Below are positions 12,013 through 38,276 of a stretch of DNA of 53,896 nucleotides, one piece after another. The first letter of the stretch is position 1. Each line of letters begins with the position of its first letter. Source of the DNA: Burkholderiales bacterium (lineage in GTDB: Bacteria; Pseudomonadota; Gammaproteobacteria; Burkholderiales; Burkholderiaceae_B); assembly GCA_027484315.1 (NCBI GenBank), contig JAIXTE010000074.1, forward strand, positions 1 through 53,896, read 5' to 3'. A program made the translations under genes and the position numbers. The notes below the pieces were generated by a model. The model ran no database searches and was not told the origin of the DNA. It saw nothing but the letters and a program-made list of their open reading frames with translations.

Positions 12013-12786
12013 ATGAATACAAATATTGACGCGATTTTCAATTTGCTGGCGGGTACAGCCCGCGGTTGGCGCGGCACTGGCGTGACTGCCCGTGCCCGTA
12101 AAACACCCGAAAAGCCATTGAAGCTGTATGACATTGAGATCAGTCCGTATTGCAGGCTGGTGCGTGAAGCCCTGTCGGAAATGGACCTCGATGTGATCAT
12201 TCTTCCTTGCCCGGTTGGCAGCAAGCGCTTCCGCGACGAAGCACGTGCCTTGTTGCCAGGCACAAAATTCCCGATGCTGGTCGATGACAACACCGGCGTG
12301 GTGATGAATGAATCGGCCAACATCATTGATTACCTGGCGAAGACTTATGACAGCAAACTGAAAAGCCAGCAAGGCGTGGGTCGAAAAGTGGCGGTGGGCA
12401 GTTCAGTACTGGCCAGTTTGTTCCAGTACCGAATTGGCGGTTTTCAGGGCATGAAGGCACGGCCTGCGAAGGTACCTGCAGAACCCTTGGTGTTGTACAG
12501 TTTTGAGGCAAGCCCTTATTCAAAGCCAGTGCGCGCGCGCCTGTGTGAACTGGAAATTCCATACCTGTTGAAAAACACCCCCAAGGGCAAGATGACCGAC
12601 CTGGGCCCTGCGGTGTTTCGCGACAAGCTGTTCAAAGGCCCAAAGGCCACCACGCGTAACCGTGCATGGCTGGCGGAAAACACGGGCCATGTTCAGGTGC
12701 CGTACCTGATTGACCCGAATACGGGTGTGGCGATGTACGAGTCCAATGACATTTTGCGTTACCTGGATTCGACTTACGGGGCTTGA
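12013..12786 (+). CDS. tandem GST-type thioredoxin-fold protein
   Basis: 257 residues made of two GST N-terminal-like thioredoxin folds in a row: the first begins LKLYDIEISPYCRLVREALSE (about residue 36) and the second LVLYSFEASPYSKPVRARLCE (about residue 160). Each ends in the glutathione-binding-like signature (VVMNESANIIDYL and VAMYESNDILRYL). The first fold keeps one Cys at the active-site turn, the second has Ser. There is no GST C-terminal helical domain, so this is probably a glutaredoxin/GST-like protein of unknown substrate. AGAGG precedes the ATG. Confidence 0.85.
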   Translation: MNTNIDAIFNLLAGTARGWRGTGVTARARKTPEKPLKLYDIEISPYCRLVREALSEMDLDVIILPCPVGSKRFRDEARALLPGTKFPMLVDDNTGVVMNESANIIDYLAKTYDSKLKSQQGVGRKVAVGSSVLASLFQYRIGGFQGMKARPAKVPAEPLVLYSFEASPYSKPVRARLCELEIPYLLKNTPKGKMTDLGPAVFRDKLFKGPKATTRNRAWLAENTGHVQVPYLIDPNTGVAMYESNDILRYLDSTYGA

Positions 12787-12855
12787 TGGCTTCTTCTCTT
12801 TGAAGGCGCAGATGTCTCCTTCGTTTTGAAAGCGCAGATTCTTAGAGTTTGCTCA

Positions 12856-13029
12856 GGCTCAGTCCCTCTGCCGCCTGAAAGCCTGTATTTCCCTTTTTGA
12901 AGTTCACACTGACTCACCTCGATCGGCAAAAAAGACGGCCGAATCGAGGTGCCGGCTTGTCGCCGAACGTGGCGTATGAATTCAAAAAGGGCAGGCTTTC
13001 TCGAAAGGCGGTGCGAGGGACATGCAGCC
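12856..13029 (+). repeat. three-way-junction structured element, copy 1
   Basis: Intergenic (12787-13523 has no convincing gene). Outer helix: GTCCCTC 12862/GAGGGAC 13015; CCGCCT 12871/AGGCGG 13006; AAAGCCTG 12878/CAGGCTTT 12992; CCCTTTTTGAA 12891 with the partner ending at 12991. Inside: hairpin A, CACCTCGATCGGC (12915) against 12938-12951 with loop AAAAAAGACG; then hairpin B, CGGC 12953/GCCG 12962. Two other copies share this layout with different helix sequences and a near-identical loop A. Confidence 0.75.
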
Positions 13030-13179
13030 TTCGCAAACTCGAAAGCCCGCGCCTCTGCGGCGTGCGGTTTGCCGCGACTTGCAGACGTTAGTTAGCATCA
13101 AGCGCCAATTTGTCAGCACGCAACGCGAGTTGGTAGCCTCTGTGGACCCGTTGAGTCAACTACCCCATCACTAGCACGT

Positions 13180-13259
13180 GTTCGCAGACTTGGGCTGTGT
13201 TCGCTGTCACCAGTACCAGTCACTAACGAGTGGAAGTTCGCAGCCTTGAGAGGTGTTCG
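13180..13259 (+). repeat. imperfect 24-base direct repeat
   Basis: 13180-13203 and 13236-13259 match at 20 of 24 positions, both beginning GTTCGCAG and ending GTGTTCG, with a period of 56 bases. It lies in the non-coding stretch between structured element copy 1 and the second structured region. No ORF context supports coding. Confidence 0.55.
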
Positions 13260-13288
13260 GATTGCTGCATCATCTTGCCGATTCAGGG

Positions 13289-13403
13289 CAAGGCTTCCCG
13301 GCTGATTCGCAGCGCGGGGCGATTGCGCTAGCAATCGATGCGACCACGCTTTAGCGTGTCGCATGCCCCAAGCCAGAATCATCGAGACGGGAAATCAGCC
13401 TTG
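13289..13403 (-). other. large imperfect cruciform with same topology as the repeat family
   Basis: Outer helix: CAAGGCT 13289/AGCCTTG 13397, TTCCCG 13295/CGGGAA 13388, GATTC 13304/GAATC 13376, GGGGC 13316/GCCCC 13365. Enclosed are CGATTGC-GCTA-GCAATCG (13320-13337) and ATGCGA-C-CACGC-TTTA-GCGTG-TCGCAT (13338-13364). Read on the minus strand the order is long hairpin then short hairpin, as in the three-copy family, but the A-rich loop is missing. Confidence 0.6.
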
Positions 13404-13418
13404 TCCAAGGCGAGATGA

Positions 13419-13514
13419 GCAGCAATGAACACCAACCTAAAGGCCTGCGCAACAGTTGCTTTGTTCAATGCCCGACACGCAGCAATGAACACCGACCCAA
13501 AGGCTTGCGCAACA
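13419..13514 (+). repeat. 60-base-period tandem repeat
   Basis: Two 36-base copies (13419-13454 and 13479-13514, 33 of 36 matching) start exactly 60 bases apart. The period is a multiple of three. On the minus strand one frame stays open and gives a repeated VAQAF..VFIAA pattern, running on past the end of the ketosynthase gene. It directly flanks the cruciform at 13289-13403. Confidence 0.75.
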
Positions 13515-13523
13515 AACGCGCGA

Positions 13524-14648
13524 TCAGGTTTTGCGAACCACAACGCTGCCAATTGAATAACCCGCACCAAACGAGCAGATCACGCCCACGTCGCCTGAAG
13601 CCAAATCTTCGCTGTGGCGGTGAAAGGCAATCACCGATCCGGCGGAAGCAGTGTTTGCAAATTCATCCAGAATCACCGGGGCCTTGTCGGCGCTGAAGTC
13701 GCTGTTGCCCAGCAGTTTTTTTGCGATCAGCTGGTTCATGGCCAGGTTGGCCTGGTGCAGCCAGTAACGACGAACGTCGTTGGCTGAATTCAGTCCAAGG
13801 CTTTCCAGGTGGGTGCTCATGTGCTCGGCAGCCATTGGACACACTTCCTTGAACACCTTGCGGCCTTCCTGCATGAACAGCTTGTCACGCGCATCGGGTT
13901 TTGCATCTTCGGACCGGTTCAGGAAGCCGAAGTTGTTGCGAATGTTGTTTGAAAATTTGGTGGCCAGCTTGGTGCCCAACACTTCCCAACTGCCGGGTTT
14001 GGCATCTTCCAGGCGCTGCACGATCACTGCAGTACACACATCACCGAAAATGAAGTGGCAATCACGGTCCAGCCAGGCCTGGTGGCCCGATGTGATTTCC
14101 GGGTTGACCATCAATACGGCGCGGGCTGTACCGCTGCGCACTGCGTTCACAGCCTGCTCAATGCCGAAGGTGGCTGATGAGCAGGCCACGTTCATGTCGT
14201 AACCAAAACCCTGAATGCCCAATGCTTCCTGAATTTCGATGGCCATGGCGGGGTAAGCGCGCTGCATGTTCGAGGCGGAACAAATCACCGCGTCAATTTG
14301 ATCGGCTGTCAGTCCTGCGGCATCCATGGCCTTGCGACCTGCATCGATAGCAATTTCAGCCATCATCGACAATTCCGAGTTTGGGCGCTCTTTGAAATAA
14401 GGGTGCAGGCGGTCCGGGTTCAGGATGCCTTCCTTTTCCATCACGTAGCGTTGCTTGATGCCAGACGCACTTTCAATGAAAGCGGAGTTGGAAGGTTGCA
14501 GCGGCTGCAGTTCGCCGCTGGCAATTTCGGCAGCATGCGCTTCATTGAATTTCGCCACATAGGCATTAAACGATTCCACCAATTCATCGTTGGTGATGGT
14601 TTGGCTGGGCACGAAAAGCCCTGTGCCGCTGATGGCTACCTTGATCAT
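13524..14648 (-). CDS. beta-ketoacyl-ACP synthase III family protein (FabH2-like)
   Basis: 374-residue condensing enzyme of the FabH family, longer than classical FabH (about 320). The triad is intact: Cys156 in [10 protein letters not shown], His in [13 protein letters not shown] and Asn in EFANTASAG. Length and the start [28 protein letters not shown] resemble the FabH2-type enzymes of Pseudomonas, which prime fatty-acid synthesis or condense medium-chain acyl groups. It stands alone, not in a fab cluster; ugd lies upstream in the same direction. Exact substrate is not predictable. Confidence 0.87.
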
Positions 14649-16996: not shown

Positions 16997-17176
16997 CGGC
17001 AGTGGTTGTCCTTGTTCCGCAATTAAGGAAAACCACCCCGATTGAGTCAGGCTTCAATGTTCGGCTGCAGGCCGACACCTGGGTGCGACCATCTTTTTTG
17101 TCGCGCCCGGGTGAATGCAAAGCCTGGCTCAATAAGGGAACAAGTGGTTTTCATGCGGAACGGGGACACCACGCCG
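16997..17176 (-). repeat. three-way-junction structured element, copy 3 (longest)
   Basis: Outer helix segments: CGGC/GCCG at the ends, then 17008-17020 with 17155-17167 (13 pairs, two G-U), AAAACCAC 17029/GTGGTTTT 17144, ATTGAGTCAGGCTT 17041 with 17120-17133. Inside, read on the minus strand: hairpin A, 14 pairs (17113-17100 with 17089-17076), loop AAAAAAGATG; then hairpin B, TCGGC/GCCGA (17075-17061). Same layout and loop as the copies at 12856 and 38163, in opposite orientation. Confidence 0.78.
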
Positions 17177-17204: not shown

Positions 17205-17984
17205 TCAAGCCGCGAAATACGCCTTCATGCGGTCTGCATAGCCCATTTCTTCGGCCTTGGCCTTGGCCAAACCACGGTAAGTGGCGTTGACCTTGTCGGT
17301 CAGCCGCGCCATGCGTTCCTGAGCCTTGGCATCCATTTCAGCTGTAATCAGGCCGACTTCCACCATCAGGTTGGCATCTGCAAATGCAGCGGCAATCAGC
17401 TCAATCAGTTTTTCATCATTGAGCATGCTGGCAAGTTTGCCGATTCTGTCCTTGCGCTGCGCATAAAAGGAAATGTGCAAATTGGCAGCCGGGTCTTTGA
17501 TCACTTCCATGATCTCAAGCGCTTTTTTCTCTGGAATGTAGTCGGTGAAACCACCCAGTACATGAAAGTCGCCTTGCTCAACCAGCTTGGCCGTGACCTT
17601 CTTGAGCTGTTCAACAGGCAATTCAGCCAGCATGTCCACAGCGCGTTCCGGAATCTGTTCGCGCGCCACATCGGCCATGAATTCTGCGTCAAACAGCTTG
17701 CACAGGCTGACCGCTTTGCTCATGGGCGTGAAGTAGGACATGTTGGCAGTAATCGCAGGTCCAAAAACCTTGGTGCACAGTGTGGCGCTGATTGAATCAG
17801 GGGCCAGTTTGCCAGCGCCAGCGATGCGTTCAAACACCGGGCCAAATTTGTTCAGTAGGCTGTTCTGAAAATTGGTACGCAGTTTTTGAAGGGCAACTGC
17901 GTCCAGTTTGTCGAGGTAAGCGAGTTCATCGGCTGATTTGTGCAGGGCCTGTGCAAGGCGGCGCAATTCTGTGTTTCTGTCCAT
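17205..17984 (-). CDS. hypothetical all-helical protein
   Basis: 259 residues, soluble, no signal peptide or membrane segment. Predicted mostly helical; residues about 95-190 (FMADVAREQIPERAVDMLAELPVEQLKKVTAKLV..., then IPEKKALEIMEVIKDP and MLNDEKLIELIAAA) look like repeated helical pairs of the kind seen in MgtE-N/FliG-middle domains, but this is only a resemblance. It follows the small gene at 17988 by 3 bases, so the two are co-transcribed. Function unknown. Confidence 0.75.
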   Translation of the reverse strand: MDRNTELRRLAQALHKSADELAYLDKLDAVALQKLRTNFQNSLLNKFGPVFERIAGAGKLAPDSISATLCTKVFGPAITANMSYFTPMSKAVSLCKLFDAEFMADVAREQIPERAVDMLAELPVEQLKKVTAKLVEQGDFHVLGGFTDYIPEKKALEIMEVIKDPAANLHISFYAQRKDRIGKLASMLNDEKLIELIAAAFADANLMVEVGLITAEMDAKAQERMARLTDKVNATYRGLAKAKAEEMGYADRMKAYFAA

Positions 17985-35611: not shown

Positions 35612-37516
35612 ATGGGTGCATTTGATTTTTTTGGCAAGAAACAGATAACAGAACAAACCGAAGCCCTTGAGGCGATGCAACGCAAGTTGAGCGAATGTGA
35701 GTTTGTCTTGACTGCGGTGAGCAAGGCGCAAGCCATGATCGAGTTCAAGATGGATGGAACCATCATCACTGCGAATGACAACTTCCTGCGCACCTTAGGC
35801 TACACACTTGACGAGATCAAGGGCAAGCACCACAGCATGTTCGCTGACACCGGAATCAGTGGTTCGATTGAATACCGCCAGTTCTGGGACAAGCTGAACC
35901 GGGGCGAATACGATGCGGGTCAATACAGGCGCATTGGCAAAGGCGGTAAAGAGGTCTGGATTGAAGCCAGCTACAACCCGATCATGGATGCTACTGGCAA
36001 GCCTTACAAAGTGGTGAAGTTTGCCACTGACATTACCCAGGCTACATTCAGCGCAATCTTCAACAGGCGTGCACTGGGCGGCCTGGAGAACGTTGAAGTG
36101 AACGTGATGTTGGCTGATGCCAATTTCAATATTGTGTACGGCAATGCGTCGCTGACTGACATGTTGCGCCGGGCTGAAAGCGATATTCGCAAAGACTTGC
36201 CTCATTTCAATGCAAGCAAAATCGTGGGTACCAACATTGATGTGTTCCATAAAAATCCGTCGCACCAGCGAGGCATGCTGGCCAACCTGAAAGGCACGCA
36301 CAAAACCGAGCTTAAAGTGGGTTCCTGCACTTTCGACCTCACGGTGAATCCGATTGACGACGACCATGGTGCTCGTCTGGGCTATGTGGTGGAATGGCGT
36401 GATCGAACTGCCGAAGTGGCCATGGAAGCGGAAATTTCAAGCGTGGTGGCCCGCGCGGCAGACGGCGATTTCAGTGACCGCATTCGTGAAGACAACAAGC
36501 GCGGATTCTTCAAAACCCTTGCACAAAACGTCAATGGCTTGCTGACCACCACGTCGGTGGGCCTGGAAGATGTGGGTCGCGTTTTGAAATTGCTGGCCAA
36601 TGGCAACATGACCCAGAAAATCACAGCCGATTACAAAGGATTGTTTGGTGATGTCAAGAATGATGTGAACGCCACCATCGACCGTTTGAGCGATGTGATT
36701 GAAGACGTTCGTGGCAACGCCGATTCACTGACCAATGCAGCTCGTGAAATTTCCAAGACATCGCAAAGTTTGTCACAAGGAGCAAGCAGCCAGGCCGCTG
36801 GTGTGGAAGAAGTATCCGCGAGCATTGAACAAATGGCAGGTTCCATCAAGCAAAACAGCGAGAACAGCCGTGTGACCGACCAGATTGCAACCAAGGCTGC
36901 CGAGGAAGCCAAGGAAGGCGGCCGCGCCGTGATTGAAACCGTGAACGCGATGAAGGCGATTGCCGGAAAAATCAGCATCGTGGATGACATTGCCTACCAA
37001 ACAAACTTGTTGGCCTTGAATGCGGCGATTGAAGCGGCCCGTGCGGGTGAGCACGGCAAAGGCTTCGCTGTGGTGGCCGCTGAAGTGCGCAAGCTGGCGG
37101 AACGCAGCCAGGTGGCCGCACAGGAAATTGGTGATTTGGCCAGCAGCAGTGTGAAGCAGGCGGAGCGGGCAGGCAGCTTGCTGCAAGAGATGGTTCCCGC
37201 AATCAATCGAACCTCTGATCTGGTGCAGGAAATTACTGCAGCGTCGAACGAGCAAACCAATGGCGTTGCGCAGATCAACCAGGCCATGATGAGCCTGAAC
37301 CAGCAAACCCAGCAGAACGCAGCCGCGTCTGAAGAGTTGGCGGCAACCGCAGAAGAAATGAGTGGCCAGGCCAGTATGCTGAATAATGCCATGAGTTTCT
37401 TTGACACTGGAAGCAGTCGCCCCCGTGCAAAAGTCCGCCAGACGGAACGTAGGCCAGTAGGCAAGTCCAGTGCCCCGCACAGTGCAGATGCTTTTGACAG
37501 CTTTGATGAGTTTTAA
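35612..37516 (+). CDS. cytoplasmic PAS-containing chemoreceptor
   Basis: 634 residues, no membrane segments. A PAS domain at about residues 30-150 ([36 protein letters not shown]), a second PAS-like region about 155-270, then a HAMP-like linker (about 275-370) and an MCP signalling domain with tip [35 protein letters not shown]. It likely senses an internal redox, oxygen or metabolic signal. Start 35612 is chosen because AGGA lies 8 bases upstream; ATG 35603 is possible. Confidence 0.92.
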
Positions 37517-37529
37517 GGAAACATTCGAC

Positions 37530-38057
37530 ATGAACAACATCAATGAACAATTGGCCAAGGCCATTGAGAGTGACAGCGCCAGCCACCAGTACCTGACTTT
37601 TCAGGTACATGATCAAAAGCTGGCGGTTGAAATTCTTCGAATCAAGGAGATCATCGAATTTGGCCGCATCACGGTGGTGCCCATGATGCAGCAATGCATC
37701 AGTGGCGTGATCAACCTTCGCGGTTCTGTAGTTCCTGTGGTGGACTTGAGTGCACGATTTGGTCAAGGCAAAACAGAAGTCAATCGCCGAACCTGTATTG
37801 TGATTCTTGAGTCACAAATGGCCGAGGAAACCCAGGTGGTTGGTTTCATGGTGGATGCAGTGAATGCGGTTGTTGATATCGCAGCGGAGTCGATTTCGCC
37901 GCCACCACAGTTTGGTGCTGGTGTACGAACCGACTTCCTGCGAGGAATTGGCAAGGTCGATGAAGAGTTTGTTCTGGTACTGAATGTTGAGCGTTTGCTG
38001 GACTTCGACATTCCTTCTGACCTTGAGGAAGTGGCCGCTACAGCTGCGATCGCTTAA
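37530..38057 (+). CDS. cheW: chemotaxis adaptor CheW
   Basis: 175 residues. The CheW fold is clear: YLTFQVHDQKLAVEILRIKEII, then ISGVINLRGSVVPVVDLSARF, and the C-terminal FLRGIGKVDEEFVLVLNVERLL. It bridges receptors and CheA. AAGGAAAC precedes ATG 37530; an earlier frame start at 37470 overlaps the receptor gene. Last gene of the operon; structured element copy 2 lies about 100 bases downstream. Confidence 0.94.
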   Translation: MNNINEQLAKAIESDSASHQYLTFQVHDQKLAVEILRIKEIIEFGRITVVPMMQQCISGVINLRGSVVPVVDLSARFGQGKTEVNRRTCIVILESQMAEETQVVGFMVDAVNAVVDIAAESISPPPQFGAGVRTDFLRGIGKVDEEFVLVLNVERLLDFDIPSDLEEVAATAAIA

Positions 38058-38162
38058 GCACGCGTAGACATTGCTGATGCTGCGACGCTTGGCTAACTTA
38101 GTTGGGCAGAAGCCGCAAAGCCCGGCTACCCTGAGCACTCGCATTGCCAGAAAACCTGTACT

Positions 38163-38261
38163 CCCTTTTGATTGAACCCATCGCTCACTGAATTCGGCAA
38201 AACAGACAGCCGAATTCAGTGTTGCCCCCCTGGGCACACGCGCCGGATTCAATCCAAAGGG
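38163..38261 (+). repeat. three-way-junction structured element, copy 2
   Basis: Outer helix CCCTTT..GATTGAA.CC (38163-38178) against 38245-38261. Hairpin A is a perfect 13-base stem, CACTGAATTCGGC (38186-38198) with 38209-38221, loop AAAACAGACA. Hairpin B follows after one base: TGCCC 38223, loop CCCT, GGGCA 38232. A weaker extension (38150-38160 with 38287-38296) is possible. The rest of 38058-38540 holds further palindromes and no gene. Confidence 0.75.
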
Positions 38262-38276
38262 CAAATATCACGATGT

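Follow-up and report, generated by a model that had tools for sequence, protein, structure and literature searches.

In the window, the whole 53,896-nucleotide stretch of DNA that was analysed, the gap between two convergent genes is filled by a composite of structured repeats, c1 (12785..13513, + strand). Its left neighbour is a GST-like gene (12013-12786, +) and its right neighbour is a KAS III-like gene (13524-14648, -). At its left edge c1 carries an outer tandem repeat (12785..12839, +; period 26, 2.1 copies, detected by Tandem Repeats Finder), which resembles the 5' base arm of the hairpin next to it. That hairpin, called Y_L and here of subtype 3, spans 12845..13040 (+) with its outer arms, as judged by the fold of 12856-13029 and by the outermost pairs GAGTTTGC / GCAAACTC in the sequence. 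Its core (12877..13000, +), a member of the training set of the covariance model R1, matches that model with 108.8 bits. The core contains hairpin A (12915..12951, +; loop AAAAAAGACG at 12928-12937), recognised by sequence, fold and covariation, and hairpin B (12953..12965, +; CGGC TTGTC GCCG), recognised by sequence and fold. The other end of the composite is a hairpin of different sequence, Y_R (13288..13416, +), which also folds into a three-way junction and matches model R2 with 142.7 bits, again as a training-set member. It is followed by right outer repeats (13418..13513, +), read from the sequence as two units of AGCAATGAACACC...AAAGGC.TGCGCAAC at 13418-13453 and 13478-13513.

Two further copies stand alone in the window. 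The lone Y_L c2 (16997..17176, -; core 17028-17152), supported by its fold and an R1 match, lies just downstream of a gene at 17205-17984 (-). The third copy, c3 (38150..38270, +; 74.9 bits), is a lone, partly degenerate Y_L about 93 bp downstream of a CheW-like gene (37470-38057, +).

A family of Y-shaped palindromes in Limnobacter

The initial annotation had proposed that the three copies share one plan, and all three indeed fold in this way: an outer helix opens, hairpin A with its 10-nt loop is followed directly by hairpin B, and the outer helix closes. For c3 the likeness of the fold holds, but the 3' outer side is degenerate. The cores that had been delimited are real, although the hairpins are longer, as the arms outside the core keep pairing out to a hairpin length of about 200 nt. 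Likewise, what had been taken as a single element at c1 is a genuine Y_L hairpin but only half of a composite, the second half being the hairpin at 13288-13416. Loop A, described as nearly constant, keeps its CAAAA start in 74 of 77 own-genome hairpins, but its remaining letters vary (AAAACACATG, AAAAGGGCGG, AAAAGTAATG). These 77 hairpins come from 40 fetched loci and the window; of an initial 78, one match (L079, 4751-4846) was discarded since it is truncated where its contig stops. Three Y_L subtypes in the own genome can be told apart by the letters 3' of GAAARCC, and a fourth, with the loop AAAAGGGCGG, was found in relatives. Arm repeats were looked for in the 75 hairpins with enough flank (two of the 77 were dropped). 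At a cut-off of 30, 31 of these 75 carry further tandem copies of the outer (5') arm on its outward side, and one has such copies of the inner (3') arm. The window copies are outside the 31; c1 scores 25, under the cut-off, against a shuffled maximum of 17.

A search pattern made of loop A and its closing pairs hit 11 extra places in the own genome (G000), compared with 1 for the reversed-pattern control, and 10 of the 11 share the Y fold (the exception is L005). As the initial annotation had asked for, a covariance model of Y_L (R1) was built, trained on 13 copies including the three of the window, and run on the own genome and on related ones. For the own genome, scoring the best 150 of 1626 first-look candidates gave at least 91 matches (E ≤ 1); for the single-contig relative G009, the best 150 of 1427 candidates gave at least 90 (E ≤ 0.1). 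Across 60 genomes, in a search that counted at most 59 matches per genome, R1 matched 12, namely the own genome and 11 of its 15 congeners, all of the genus Limnobacter, and none of the 44 genomes of other genera. The four Limnobacter genomes without a match are G014 and G015 (both more than 90% complete), G002 (85%) and G010 (65%); the number of matches per Limnobacter genome thus ranges from 0 to about 90, and the sole copy found in G004 (L252) is a remnant. When the Y_R model R2 was run on 199 genomes of 102 genera, with the best 17 candidates scored per genome, the same 12 genomes matched, which is 1 of 102 genera, and 0 of 183 genomes of other genera did. The pattern control (11 against 1), the at least 91 R1 matches and the 0 of 44 genomes of other genera rule out chance or artefact as the origin of the family.

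A pattern scan returned at least 99 stretches, of which the 52 Limnobacter-like ones yielded 75 model matches. The 47 stretches from other genera, together with two viral loci, yielded 8 weak matches of 16-31 bits that we judged to be chance; the best match outside Limnobacter (31.4 bits over 51 nt, E 0.00027) came from a set picked by the same motif. The pattern matches on viral contigs were also attributed to chance, L230 and L231 having no listed model match and L232 sharing only a short motif in what was a motif comparison only. A phage or plasmid vector was considered, and no such match was found for the element. The whole window has no Rfam match at the gathering score, and at a relaxed threshold the sole match over the element was snoRNA sR60 with E 0.91. 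In agreement with the initial annotation, which could name no family for the repeats, no description of the Y-palindromes was found in open-licence papers.

The earlier reading missed the facing pairs, the dispersal, the presence differences between species and the look of a mobile unit. In the own genome, 60 of the 77 hairpins form 30 Y_L pairs under a rule that accepts only + followed by - within 700 bp, and 17 lie outside any such pair; the core-to-core distances in the 30 pairs are 375-690 bp. When no pairing rule was applied, 29 of 30 neighbours less than 800 bp apart in G009 were still oriented + then -, and one was - -. The commonest unit is therefore two inverted hairpins and a spacer. 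The composite c1 is of a different type from these Y_L-Y_L pairs, its partner being a Y_R. Where a home-made gene caller found both neighbours, composites lay between convergent genes in 20 of 28 cases, between tandem genes in 5 and 3, and between divergent genes in none. The background value was 5 convergent among 44 neighbouring gene pairs (Fisher p 3e-7), an excess that is overstated because this background, taken from one window with the same caller, includes operon neighbours. Harmless landing and a terminator role would both give such a convergent bias.

Copying as units and differences between species

Of the 30 composites in the own genome, 19 take part in 49 pairs whose alignments run across the two hairpins and the spacer between them, with 66-85% identity (median 71%). 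When the alignment ends are tallied in both directions, 118 of 196 lie 28-38 nt beyond the cores, with medians of 32 and 33. Since units at different loci align from end to end, the composite was copied as one unit. The modest identity between units indicates that no very recent jump was caught.

Species also differ at orthologous junctions. The gst/kas junction (window 12787-13523) could be compared in 14 of the 16 Limnobacter genomes, and 10 of these are filled, with the element in + orientation in G000, G009, G003, G005, G012 and G013 and in - orientation in G006, G007, G008 and G011. In G001 the gap is 38 bp long and retains 15 nt that form part of an outer arm in G006. The gaps of G004, G014 and G015 are longer and gave no R1 match, that of G014 being other sequence. 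At site A, examined in 15 of 16 genomes, R1 matched in 5 (in G003 as a 28.6-bit fragment), and the other 10 have gaps of 15-125 bp with no match. At site B, examined in 14 of 16, 4 genomes are filled, 8 have 26-111 bp (with a remnant in G001) and 2 have other sequence. G010 was excluded from both sites because its contig is broken or short. G000 and G009 agree at all four compared sites (gst/kas, the c2 site, A and B).

Some short gaps, such as those of G006 at sites A and B, retain base arms only, and a plausible reading of the sequence is that they arose by deletion between short repeats. Because such scars occur, part of the polymorphism is loss and not gain. Gain is argued for by the dispersal of homologous units and by the two orientations at gst/kas.

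Covariation and the level at which pairing is kept

The helices of the family covary, as the initial annotation had stated. When 110 non-redundant Y_L copies were aligned by sequence only and analysed by corrected mutual information, 15 of the 18 strongest pairs are helix base pairs and 2 join adjacent columns of one helix; the remaining pair, 32-98, would extend the junction helix beyond a bulge. Shuffle tests on three alignments also support this. None of 500 shuffles beat the data in any of five measures for A2 (78 copies) and A5 (Y_R, 50 distinct), and for A4 (74 distinct) the count was 0 of 500 in four measures and 35 of 500 in the fifth, with the qualification that A2, A4 and A5 were fitted by covariance models and so are biased towards structure, and that shuffles ignore relatedness. 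Slid versions of the three alignments score far lower.

Covariation had also been presented as what selection produces when it acts on folded RNA or folded single-stranded DNA, and this part of the claim was not supported. In a folded RNA, G.U is tolerated better than A.C. In Y_L, G.T occurs in 54 and A.C in 73 of 3279 cells (31 versus 65 when the odd pair 45-68 is left out). Since G.T does not exceed A.C, selection for RNA folding on one strand is not needed to account for the paired Y_L arms, and there is a fair case that these arms are kept up at the level of DNA. Y_R gave another picture: its 40 non-redundant copies have 71 G.T versus 8 A.C, partly at fixed wobble positions, and 21 versus 8 when departures from the usual pair are counted. 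In its inner helices the numbers are 30 versus 4, and 3 versus 4 as departures. RNA-level selection could therefore act on Y_R. A control on tRNA stems (11 tRNAs; G.T 2 and A.C 0 of 77 cells) was too small for use.

Candidate processes at the DNA level are the copying or correction of palindromes and the spread of ready-made palindromes, which explain the Y_L covariation at least as well. Imperfect palindromes are known to undergo template-switch mutation (PMC7202029).

The reading of each Y hairpin as a structured RNA, namely as a 3'-UTR or terminator domain that is conserved and selected for its folding in the sense transcript of the preceding gene, is doubtful in the light of these counts. 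A + then - pair between convergent genes would place the same hairpin strand in the 3' end of each mRNA, junction and loop opening are conserved on one strand, and in Y_R G.T exceeds A.C, all of which are in its favour. It is at odds with the lack of a wobble preference in Y_L (54 versus 73), with orthologous sites that gain or lack copies and carry both orientations at gst/kas, with the missing Rfam match, and with matches per Limnobacter genome that run from 0 to about 90. More generally, even strong covariation is no proof of an RNA, and the ratio of G.T to A.C is a simple check to make before one is called.

A probable mobile unit, its candidate enzymes and the genes it encloses

Taken together, we propose that the dispersed, paired Y-shaped DNA palindromes, so far restricted to Limnobacter, are probably a non-autonomous mobile element moved in trans by a predicted recombinase. 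This enzyme would recognise the folded single strand of each end through the CAAAA loop opening and the conserved junction. Insertion into convergent gaps would do the least harm. Pairing in the Y_L arms would be maintained less by RNA selection than by palindrome-templated copying, and copies may also be lost when deletion across a hairpin leaves arm scars. No excess of 4-8 nt matches, as expected of a target-site duplication, was seen around the inferred ends of the 30 composites, ends which are known only to within some nucleotides. In the stretches whose reading frames were read, no autonomous copy with a transposase between hairpins was found.

Three enzyme families were considered. Y1_Tnp (PF01797) occurs in 1 of 16 Limnobacter genomes (G000 only) and the elements in 12, so it does not track them; nor does Y2_Tnp (PF04986), the IS91-type transposase, found only in G014, a genome without elements. 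Integron integrase is above its cut-off in 2 of 16 genomes (G009 and G001) and does not track the 12 element-bearing genomes either. Among these three families (RAYT/Y1, Y2 and integron integrase), none is tied to the element. The two Y1 transposase genes of G000 lie at L101 (G000:C97) and L102 (G000:C102) and are absent from the other 15 genomes. The integrase matches comprise a full-length one at G009:C1:2438434-2439375 (L316) and two pieces at G001:C5:189683-190539, and lower-scoring pieces occur in G014, G000 and G003.

Comparison with known systems indicates a new architecture. REPINs (REP doublets) are inverted doublets with a spacer, dispersed as replicative extragenic units and predicted to fold as single-stranded DNA (PMC3116915), and Y pairs share this plan: they are inverted doublets (29 of 30 in G009) and intergenic in the own genome. 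The likeness is one of plan at another scale. The halves of Y pairs are three-way-junction hairpins of about 200 nt compared with REPs of 20-40 bp (PMC3733652), their outer arms are often tandemly repeated, and a few pairs enclose genes. With Y1_Tnp missing from 15 of 16 genomes while elements occur in 12 of 16, we regard mobilisation as REPINs by a RAYT transposase as very improbable. ERIC or IRU sequences, MITE-like bacterial repeats, resemble the Y family in being intergenic and palindromic and in having no established mobiliser (PMC2229807). ERIC is described there as a 127-bp element with 7-bp terminal repeats, target-site duplication and TA ends; the Y family differs in having two Y palindromes per unit and in that no target-site duplication was found at the inferred ends. 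The broad features of MITE-like elements, dispersed homologous copies and presence or absence between species, were observed here. The plan is also like that of eukaryotic foldback transposons, but kingdom, sequence and size differ. Those transposons end in long fold-back sequences that contain tandem repeats, and their contents vary.

A further comparison concerns the integron attC sites, which, like the Y family, are imperfect palindromes kept by structure over sequence and may bound gene modules (PMC2727003). That the Y hairpins are attC-like cassette sites recognised by an integron integrase is nevertheless highly unlikely. Palindromes do flank gene modules at some loci, and integrase is above cut-off in G009 and G001, with weaker pieces in G014, G000 and G003. 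In contrast, seven element-bearing genomes (G005, G006, G007, G008, G011, G012 and G013) have integrase matches of at most 82 bits against a cut-off of 265, which we read as XerC/D-like, the R1 match nearest to the G009 integrase is more than 200 kb away, and the Y elements are three-way-junction hairpins dispersed in pairs and not arrayed. No attC core motif was noticed by eye in the Y hairpins.

We then consider the genes enclosed by hairpin pairs. G009 has three facing pairs under 5 kb that are wider than usual, one of which (4.0 kb) corresponds to the places of c1 and c2 with ordinary genes between them. Another of its wide pairs (L285:1052-2834) encloses a C92 papain-like amidase and a 204-aa protein with a signal-like start by eye, and a third (L286:1062-2563) an NlpC/P60 protein and a 163-aa protein with a lipoprotein-like start by eye. 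A DUF3828 protein gene is also enclosed in G009, and in G001 a PIN-domain (VapC-like) gene and a gene for a 170-aa protein lie between Y_R and Y_L (L250:2238-3897). Downstream of lysS, outward-facing Y_R hairpins flank a 142-aa lipoprotein-like gene on both sides in G005, G006 and G013, and its 174-aa form in G011. In G008 (L242:2452-3759) they flank an M23 peptidase gene and a lipoprotein-like gene, and other lysS-gap loci (L239, L240, L241, L243, L302 and L308) have M23 and/or lipoprotein-like genes beside or between outward Y_R. In G003 and G007 a left hairpin remains and the M23 frames are broken; G000 and G009 have M23 and lipoprotein-like genes on the opposite strand, with the Y_R core absent by text search. 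The gap is 162 bp in G012; in G001, G002, G004, G014 and G015 genes of this kind are lacking or others take their place, and in G010 the contig breaks off at this point. Relatives of the lipoprotein-like protein number 49, with identities of 52-99%, the organism-labelled ones being Limnobacter or an unnamed betaproteobacterium. NCBIfam gave no match above cut-off for the enclosed genes. From their size, an apparent lack of signal and the type of partner, these genes may form putative toxin-immunity pairs. In the 30 own-genome Y_L pairs, a called gene was inside only once, as an overlapping call. Because a called gene is almost never inside these pairs, hairpins and gene modules may be two things that share gaps.

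Two further readings were weighed. The Y pairs might be the ends of a new cassette system, in which a predicted enzyme would cut and join folded three-way-junction strands and thereby carry their contents into gene gaps, for example the one after lysS, and out again. These contents would range from nothing but a spacer (0.13-0.44 kb) up to small antibacterial peptidase-immunity modules; we consider this a minor possibility. If true, small genes would have a second route of exchange via folded single strands, next to that of integrons. Improbable, too, is that repeats once mobile owe their present upkeep mainly to a role as bidirectional terminators or insulators where convergent genes meet, in line with roles proposed for REP/BIME. 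The convergent position of 20 of 28 composites and the absence of divergent ones would suit this reading, but related species have 15-125 bp at the same junctions, promoter avoidance alone would give a similar distribution, and the background was taken from a single window with genes called by a home-made program.

Returning to the mobile element, the best reading is that the two-hairpin Y-palindrome repeats are non-autonomous palindromic mobile repeats in the broad sense, with a new architecture. In their workings REPINs and ERIC-like repeats come closest, but with RAYT missing from most of the genomes and no target-site duplication seen at the inferred ends, we do not file them under REPIN or ERIC. 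On this reading, the family adds a class of repeats with large Y-shaped palindromes as halves, in an environmental genus.
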